From the NCBI RefSeq assembly GCF_001719125.1, contig NZ_CP017006.1, positions 744,001 to 808,000 of the forward strand: a DNA stretch of 64,000 bases. The letters run 5' to 3'. Below are positions 2,019-53,029 of this stretch, one piece after another. Both the position numbers and the translations under genes were made by a program. The notes beneath the pieces are model-generated. The model was not told the DNA's origin. It saw nothing but the letters and a program-made list of their open reading frames with translations, and did no database searches. The number at the start of each line of letters is the position of its first letter. The first letter of the stretch is position 1. The stretch comes from Sulfolobus sp. A20. Lineage in GTDB: Archaea; Thermoproteota; Thermoprotei_A; Sulfolobales; Sulfolobaceae.

Positions 2019-2279
2019 ATGAGTGAAATAAAATATTACCTAATTAAGGGAACCGCGCTATTTGGAGAATCACACTACCCAGAAAGGAGAAAATTTGTTA
2101 AAGTAATTAGAGCTTTAAATGAAAAACAAGCTACTGAATATATTTATTCCTATTTTGGTAGTAAGAACAAAATTAAAAGATATAACATAAAAATAGAGGA
2201 AATAAGAGAGCTAAAGGAAGAAGAAGTTATAGATAAAAGAGTAAAAGAGATTGGAAAATTGGAAAAGATTATAGTGTGA
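2019..2279 (+). CDS. rplX: Large-subunit ribosomal protein LX (L18Ae family)
   Basis: Archaeal LX, the homologue of eukaryotic L18a/eL20. Starting at ATG 2019 gives 86 residues, the normal LX size, beginning [18 protein letters not shown]; the family pattern includes [25 protein letters not shown] in pieces at residues 25-50 and ends in a charged helix. I prefer ATG 2019 over the in-frame GTG 2010 because GGTGA at 2009-2013 is then correctly placed as a ribosome binding site. It is followed by pfdA with almost no spacer. Confidence 0.9.
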
Positions 2280-2284
2280 GAAAT

Positions 2285-2728
2285 ATGAGTCAAAATCAAG
2301 GAGCTATTTCGTTAGAGGACTTAATAGCGCAGGCGGATTATTTAAGAAAATATATAGACTCTCTTCAGAAGACTCAATTGGAGATATTAGATTCATTAAG
2401 TTCCGTAGATTCAGCTAAGCAGGCTATTGAAGAGATGAAAAAGGGAGGAAACCCTCAAATGATGATGTTTCTCGATAAAAAGGGATATGCCTTAGTTAAA
2501 GTCAATGGAGCAACTGTTGATAAAATAATAATCCACTTAGGTTTAAGTTATTATGCGGAAGTGAGCCCAGATGACGCAGTAAAGATTTTAGATAAAAAGA
2601 AGGATGAATTAGAAAAAGCAGCACAGAGTCTAAATAATGAACTTCAGAAGGCAGCAGATACTTATAATCAGATAGTAGATATTTTAAATCAGATTCAGCA
2701 AGCTGCCGCCAAACAACAAGGTGAATAA
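2285..2728 (+). CDS. pfdA: Prefoldin subunit alpha
   Basis: Alpha subunit of the hexameric archaeal prefoldin, a chaperone that delivers unfolded proteins to the thermosome. From ATG 2285 the product is 147 residues: an N-terminal coiled-coil helix ([18 protein letters not shown]), a central beta hairpin pair ([14 protein letters not shown] and [19 protein letters not shown]) and a long C-terminal coiled-coil helix. An in-frame GTG at 2276 would overlap the rplX stop and add three residues; ATG is preferred. The 3' end supplies the GGTGA ribosome binding site for ftsY (2720-2724). Confidence 0.93.
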
Positions 2729-2729
2729 A

Positions 2730-3807
2730 TTGTTTTGACAAATTAAAAAAAGCTTTTTCCAGTTTTGCTGACAAAATTAAGGGGGAAAATAAAGAAAGAG
2801 CTACTAGTGAGGAAAAGCCAGAAAAGGCTGAATTACAACAGATAGTTCCGCAAATCGAGGAAAAGAAAGAGGAGCAAGCAGAGGGTTCGAAAAGAAATGA
2901 TGAAGTAAATGTTAGTCAACCAGAAGAAAAAAGAGGATTAGGTATTTTCGATTTTTTAAGATATAGGGAGATCAAAGAAAGTGACATAGAGGAGCTCATA
3001 GAAGAACTCAGATATCAGCTATTAGAGAGTGATGTTTCATTTGAGGTTACAGAAAAAATTTTAAATGATTTAAAAAATAACTTAGTAGGAAAAAAGATAA
3101 GAAGGAGTGATGATATAGAGAAAATTACAAAAGAGTCGCTAAAAAAATCTATAGAAGAAATCCTAACAAAAAATAAACCAATAGACATAGTTAGTGAAAT
3201 AAAAAAGTCACAAAAACCTTACGTCATAGTGTTCTTTGGAATAAATGGAGTAGGTAAAACTACGACTATTGCAAAATTTGCATACTTATTAAAGAAAAGC
3301 GGAATTAATACCATAATAGCAGCATCAGATACCTTTAGAGCGGCTGCACAAGAGCAACTAACTATTCATGCTAATAATTTGGGAATACCAATTATTAAGG
3401 GAAAATATGGGGCTGATCCCGCGTCAGTAGCCTTTGATGCAATTCAAGCAGCTAAAAGTAGAGGTATTGATGTAGTCTTAATAGATACTGCCGGGAGAAT
3501 GCATACGGATTCAGATCTAGTTAATGAACTAAAAAGGATTCTAAGGATAACTAAGCCAAATTTAAGAATCTTAATTTTAGACTCATTAAGCGGAAATGAT
3601 GCTCTAGAGCAAGCAAAATATTTTGAAAATAATGTGGGATTTGACCTGGTTATCTTAACTAAAGTGGATGCTGATGTTAAAGGCGGTATAGCTTTATCAT
3701 TGGCATATGAGTTAAGTAAGCCAGTAGGATATCTTGGAATTGGACAAACTTATGATGATTTAATACCTTTTGATGCTAACTGGTTCATTAATAAGATATT
3801 TGAGTAA
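2730..3807 (+). CDS. ftsY: Signal recognition particle receptor FtsY (apparent +1 shift at codon 2-3)
   Basis: SRP receptor GTPase that docks the SRP-ribosome complex at the membrane. The readable frame contains a charged Lys/Glu-rich A region (about residues 15-70), an N domain (IKESDIEELIEELRYQLLES), and a G domain with P-loop GINGVGKTTT, DTFRAAAQEQ, DTAGRMH and TKVDAD motifs, ending at 3807. The problem is the start: this frame is open from 2725 but has no ATG, GTG or TTG until 3229, far inside the N domain. A TTG at 2730, five bases after GGTGA, is the natural start, but it reads TTG TTT TGA. Skipping one T (TTG TTT GAC) restores a 358-residue protein. This is either a one-base sequence error or mutation in the T run 2733-2736, or a real +1 frameshift. 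Downstream is secE. Confidence 0.85.
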
Positions 3808-52895: not shown

Positions 52896-52984
52896 GGACC
52901 CGTAGCTCAGCCAGGACGGAGCGCCGGCCTTCTAGCGTCCAGGAGGTAAGCCGGCGGTCCCGGGTTCAAATCCCGGCGGGTCCG
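52896..52984 (+). tRNA. tRNA-Arg (anticodon TCT) with 14-nt intron
   Basis: Acceptor GGACCCG/CGGGTCC, D arm GCTC/GAGC, anticodon stem CCGGC/GCCGG, T arm CCGGG-like around TTCAAAT, discriminator G 52984. The loop reads C-T-TCT-A and is interrupted after position 37 by a 14-nt intron at 52935-52948. Without it the tRNA is 75 nt and reads AGA codons. The exons are nearly identical to tRNA-Arg(CCT) at 11022, differing at the anticodon and a few stem positions. CCA is not encoded. Confidence 0.93.
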
Positions 52985-53029
52985 CACATATTATTTTTGA
53001 GTATATACTTATACTAGATACTTTTATTA

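Follow-up and report, generated by a model that had tools for sequence, protein, structure and literature searches.

Evidence for a probable programmed +1 ribosomal frameshift at the second codon of ftsY, conserved in Sulfolobaceae

In +1 frameshifting of the yeast Ty1/Ty3 type, the P-site tRNA slips by one base with a rare sense codon positioned in the A site, and in bacterial prfB, the gene of release factor 2, a Shine-Dalgarno (SD) stimulator lies about 3 nt before the slip codon and is distinct from initiation. The prfB motif has been described as YTT_TRA_C in a work whose frameshift finder misses shifts located less than 50 nt from a start (PMC3711429). In Archaea, where AUG, GUG and UUG are given as start codons (PMC7531240), the accessible part of one account lists for cellular genes a single -1 case, fucA1 of Saccharolobus solfataricus, with a shift at A-AAA-AAT in strains P2 and 98/2 only, and a presumed shift in magnesium chelatase (PMC8211752). 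An apparent +1 frameshift has been described in the haloarchaeal virus HSTV-2 (PMC8211752, PMC5009743), and the available portion of PMC5009743 draws much the same picture of archaeal frameshifting as PMC8211752. Archaeal FtsY has been reviewed in PMC2905702, the accessible sections of which do not mention the ftsY start site.

We analysed a stretch of 64,000 nucleotides from Sulfolobus sp. A20 (hereafter the window), in which the gene for FtsY, the SRP receptor, follows that of the prefoldin alpha subunit (2276..2728, + strand; an open reading frame matching TIGR00293, E 1.4e-30). Direct reading of positions 2720-2742 gives GGTGA ATAAA TTG TTT TGA CAAA. The SD sequence GGTGA (2720..2724, +) lies within the last codons of the prefoldin gene and is separated by a spacer of 5 nt from a TTG (2730..2732, +), the putative 0-frame start codon of ftsY. 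Since the prefoldin stop codon TAA (2726-2728) ends 1 nt before this TTG, translation of ftsY is probably coupled to the prefoldin cistron. The TTG is followed by TTT (2733..2735, +), the putative slippery Phe codon of the P site, and then, still in the 0 frame, by the stop codon TGA in the A site (2736..2738, +) and a C. A +1 shift would pass over the pyrimidine at 2736 (2736..2736, +), which is one base more than is found in outgroups with an in-frame start, and would lead into the FtsY coding frame, which continues with DKLKKAF and ends with the stop codon at 3805-3807 (2737..3807, +; TIGR00064 ftsY, E 4.7e-106). The top PDB sequence matches of this FtsY, the FtsY structures 5l3w and 5l3s, cover the NG domain alone and are uninformative on the N-terminus.

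Downstream of a TGA at 2722-2724, the FtsY frame stays open from 2725 to 3807 and begins ATA AAT TGT TTT GAC AAA. No ATG, GTG or TTG occurs in it for 168 codons, until the GTG at 3229, just before the P-loop. A previous sequence-only reading of the window had reported both this missing start and the arrangement of GGTGA five bases upstream of TTG TTT TGA C, and our direct reading confirms them. From 464 kb of the same genome (the window and 20 stretches of 20 kb each), we collected 334 stop-to-stop frames that do not overlap and span at least 150 codons, and counted the codons before the first start in each. The 168 codons of ftsY are the highest count, the second frame having 97 and the median being 4.

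A sequencing error or a private mutation that added a T had been proposed as the simpler explanation, and the T4 run present in the window speaks for an error or indel of this kind. However, the extra base is found in all 31 genomes of our family set, which covers 11 genera, contains FtsY in every genome and was oriented and aligned on the Phe codon. The other 30 genomes thus answer the question whether relatives carry TTT or TTTT, as all of them have the additional pyrimidine; over the whole set, it is T in 14 genomes and C in 17, the latter having no T4 run. The FtsY frame is long and without stops in 31/31, which argues against a pseudogene. The extra base is therefore a real, family-wide feature, and its presence throughout the family, together with the codon conservation and the tree described below, refutes the private origin; we regard an error, a private indel or a pseudogene in the window genome as extremely improbable.

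The sites read TTG TTT TGA in 13 genomes, CTG TTT CGA in nine, TTG TTT CGA in eight and ACG TTT TGA in one (L065, a genome that is 79% complete). The putative start codon is TTG in 21 genomes, CTG in nine and ACG in one. It is never ATG or GTG, and a weak ftsY start may itself be under selection. In 30 of the 31 genomes, a GGTGN SD sequence is separated from the start by 5-6 nt, in agreement with the initiation distance noted earlier for the window, while L024 has GAGGGCGAG instead. The FtsY frame reads NNY TGT TTY GAY/GAG in 30 genomes and TAA CGT TTT GAT in L065. In 27 of the 31 genomes, this frame contains no ATG, GTG or TTG from the preceding stop up to the conserved N-terminal helix; the remaining four (L016, L018, L019 and L020) have an in-frame GTG two codons before the TGT, abutting the SD sequence. 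From the putative start, the 0 frame encodes a peptide of 2-18 codons in all 31 genomes, and joining the two frames by +1 would be needed for the conserved FtsY in each of them. In the codon alignment of the 31 genes, the helix FDKLKKAF is conserved beginning with the Phe codon, and this region is therefore translated.

The prefoldin stop lies 4-8 nt (4, 5 or 8) before the start in 31/31 genomes, in two different frames relative to it. Since prefoldin ends in either of two frames, we rejected two further candidates, namely that the site is caused by overlap coding with prefoldin and that stop readthrough fuses prefoldin with FtsY; neither explains the site.

The family ftsY genes were then aligned by codon from the TGT codon on, and columns with a residue other than Met or Trp common to at least 29 of the 31 sequences were taken as conserved. 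Of these 127 columns, that of TGT is the only one whose third base never varies; both T and C occur in each of the other 26 two-fold T/C columns, the rarer of them at least eight times. Given the codon usage of each ftsY, the chance of T throughout at this position is 5.7e-9 with rows taken as independent and 3.2e-4 with the 11 genera as units. The invariant T opens the 0-frame UUU, and the FtsY Phe codon fixes the two U's that follow. The third base of this Phe codon varies freely, with T in 14 genomes and C in 17, and it decides whether UGA or CGA stands in the 0-frame A site; re-pairing of tRNA-Phe from UUU to UUY in the +1 frame is possible in 31/31 genomes. These patterns show that the putative slip codon is under selection, and the +1 slip of tRNA-Phe on TTTT, as suggested earlier for the window, is strongly supported by this conservation.

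The same product, M-F-D-K, would also arise from a choice of frame at the first elongation step, with the initiator on YUG, a U being skipped and the first Phe-tRNA then entering on UUY. The location of the site at codon 2, where the SD duplex may still hold the ribosome, would suit such an event. The skipped base could then be anything, yet it is T in 31/31 genomes, whereas other two-fold third positions vary, and we consider this frame choice improbable compared with a slip on UUU.

The main rival to a frameshift is in-frame non-AUG initiation, by which FtsY would start without any shift at the non-canonical UGU, where the outgroups start. In 30 of the 31 family genomes, TTY is immediately preceded by an in-frame TGT. 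The TGT lies 6-7 nt from the SD sequence, which is also a normal spacing, as the distance from GGTG[AG] to the start peaks at 6 and is mostly 5-8 in our own-genome control; SD spacing therefore cannot separate YTG from an in-frame UGU start. Moreover, canonical in-frame starts are also missing from 20 of the 29 family loci of a tRNA(C56) methyltransferase gene found in the same genome, so that start rules may be loose here. On the other hand, established pairing rules allow the CAU anticodon of the initiator two base pairs with UUG or CUG, but none with UGU. In L065, TGT is replaced by CGT, yet the T of UUU is kept and a near-cognate ACG is gained, a pattern expected of a slip codon but not of a UGU start. 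The other in-frame codons above the TGT (ATA, GTA, GTG and ATT) are not conserved, and 11 of the 31 genomes have none of them. In our judgement, initiation at UGU is unlikely.

To place the extra base in time, we compared 98 outgroup loci, taken from 88 of 116 non-family genomes plus 10 loci of a contig scan (L033-L042), with a few duplicates between the collections. The scan itself yielded FtsY from other lineages only and no additional one with the family site; 16 of its loci (L043-L058) were left out. An in-frame ATG, GTG or TTG is located directly or at most three codons before the helix in 93 of the 98 loci, which come from non-family members of the same order. This tally consists of 35 of 38 loci assigned by script, two of the three misses assigned by reading (L079 and L038), 42 of 60 further loci assigned by script and 14 of the 18 left over assigned by eye; four outgroup loci had no assigned start after a second look by eye. 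In one script, GGTG was found within 22 bases of 21 of 52 outgroup starts, and it ends 5-7 bases from the start in 12 of these 21. The correspondence is visible, for example, in the outgroup L028, which reads GGTGT AATATT TTG TTT GAA against GGTGG ATAATT TTG TTT C GAT in the family member L007. Because starts and spacings match in this way, the YTG, including the TTG at 2730..2732 of the window, appears to occupy the place of the ancestral in-frame start. The N-terminus of the outgroup L026, MFDKLKKAF, also matches the M-F-D-K predicted for the family product.

On a tree of 59 NG domains (rows), built with a quick method, the state of the extra base requires one change without L080 and two with it, and the family branch has a support of 99. 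Since the whole family has the base and 93 of 98 relatives start in frame, sequence comparison indicates that one base was gained once in the ancestor of the family and then kept, or that two changes occurred if L080 is counted. This locus comes from a metagenome bin of another family (G094, 76% complete); it reads TTG TTT CGGC AAG, has no in-frame start above and is the sole ftsY with a family-like arrangement among the outgroup loci read. Its arrangement may represent a second origin or an assembly indel.

Considering all the above results, we believe that FtsY of Sulfolobaceae is probably made through a conserved, programmed +1 ribosomal frameshift at the second codon. Ribosomes held by the GGTGA SD sequence, probably those finishing the prefoldin cistron, would initiate at YUG (UUG or CUG), and tRNA-Phe would then decode UUU. 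With UGA or the rare CGA as a slow codon in the A site, tRNA-Phe in the P site would move one base forward, from UUU onto UUY, a codon that it would read equally well or better. Translation would continue in GAY AAR to give Met-Phe-Asp-Lys, as in the canonical N-terminus of outgroups, and ribosomes that do not slip would end after 2-18 codons. The sequences show the layout of the site, the missing in-frame start, the gain of one base in the family ancestor and the constraint on the slip codon; the shift itself, its efficiency and any regulatory use are inferred. Several findings count against the frameshift model: a start that is never ATG or GTG is not predicted by it alone, an in-frame GTG is available in L016, L018, L019 and L020, the SD spacing suits UGU as well as YTG, and, as detailed below, the site has no conserved RNA structure and in-frame TTT CGA is not clearly avoided in the same genome.

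Removal of the extra base from the transcript, by polymerase slippage, editing or splicing, would equally restore the frame. However, TTTC in 17 of the 31 genomes offers no run for slippage, and the consensus is without RNA structure, which makes such a repair very unlikely compared with a shift on the ribosome. A search for conserved RNA structure round the site in 24 of the 31 family sequences gave none (z 0.36 for the window). In own-genome genes, avoidance of in-frame TTT CGA gave no clear signal (2 observed, 3.6 expected). A search for the same site in other genes returned extra pattern matches in some genomes, and none of the seven that we read has a long open +1 frame.

We conclude that the ftsY site most likely works like those of prfB and Ty1 without being a member of the prfB type. 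The likeness to prfB noted in the sequence-only reading stands in part. As in prfB, a P-site tRNA would slip by +1 on a pyrimidine-rich codon, which TGA C follows in the window and 13 other genomes; an SD sequence lies upstream, and the shift would be needed for the full protein. Unlike in prfB, UGA occupies the A site in 14 of the 31 genomes only, including that of the window, and CGA in the other 17; the TGA is thus no conserved element of the site, and a stop codon in the A site would not be required. The SD sequence lies 8-9 nt before the slip codon, at initiation distance and not at that of a prfB-type stimulator. The product belongs to TIGR00064 and is not a release factor, so that the autoregulatory feedback of a release factor does not apply, and the site is placed at codon 2 on an archaeal ribosome.

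With the Ty1/Ty3 type, the ftsY site may share a rare sense codon in the A site, namely CGA in 17 of the 31 genomes. CGA accounts for 14 of 285 Arg codons in the ftsY genes of these 17 genomes, and for 129 of 4940 in the own-genome sample. The site differs from that type in belonging to a cellular core gene of an archaeon and in its position directly after initiation, and the window itself has UGA. Like fucA1, ftsY would represent recoding of a cellular gene in the same archaeal group, but with a +1 shift in the whole family instead of a -1 shift in two strains. The apparent HSTV-2 shift is also +1 on an archaeal ribosome, though in a viral gene and a halophilic host, whereas ftsY is cellular.

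If confirmed, this would be, as far as we have searched, the first conserved cellular +1 case in Archaea, and would mean that archaeal ribosomes shift by +1 for a core gene, that of the SRP receptor, in a whole family. Our literature searches covered FtsY and Sulfolobus frameshifting, start codons, the Acidianus SRP receptor, N-terminal proteomics, ribosome profiling, AUU starts and essential genes; within this coverage, outside which most subscription papers fall, nothing on the site was found, and no peptide, ribosome-profiling or reporter evidence for an ftsY frameshift. The shift would also settle the FtsY N-terminus in the family and expose a blind spot of frameshift finders near the start. 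As Sulfolobaceae include genetically tractable Sulfolobus species, the site would offer a simple native setting to study how an initiating archaeal ribosome holds or loses its frame.

More tentatively, and with rather less confidence than in the frameshift itself, we propose that the shift could be obligatory, near-complete and coupled to initiation throughout the family, occurring on the SD-bound ribosome in the first or second elongation cycle and with UGA and CGA alike. Such a shift would define a new class of start-proximal frameshifting and may set the dose of FtsY via termination or the supply of tRNA-Arg.

Two additional loci of the Sulfolobus sp. A20 genome deserve mention. The methyltransferase gene referred to above is tRNA (cytidine-56)-2'-O-methyltransferase-like (L101:13634-14194, - strand; G000:C1:863634-864194 in the genome; relatives L115-L143) and matches NF003048 below the model cut-off. 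The 20 of its 29 family loci without a canonical start have no in-frame ATG, GTG or TTG before the conserved core, and ATT, ATA or ATC stands behind a purine-rich, SD-like stretch in 24 of the 29. As this stretch shares its sequence with the end of the preceding gene, its conservation may be explained by the coding of the latter. Finally, the window contains a tRNA gene at 52896-52985 (+) that ARAGORN labels tRNA-Pyl with anticodon CTA and that Rfam confirms as a tRNA (55 bits); it is possibly a misread intron-containing tRNA and not a pyrrolysine tRNA.
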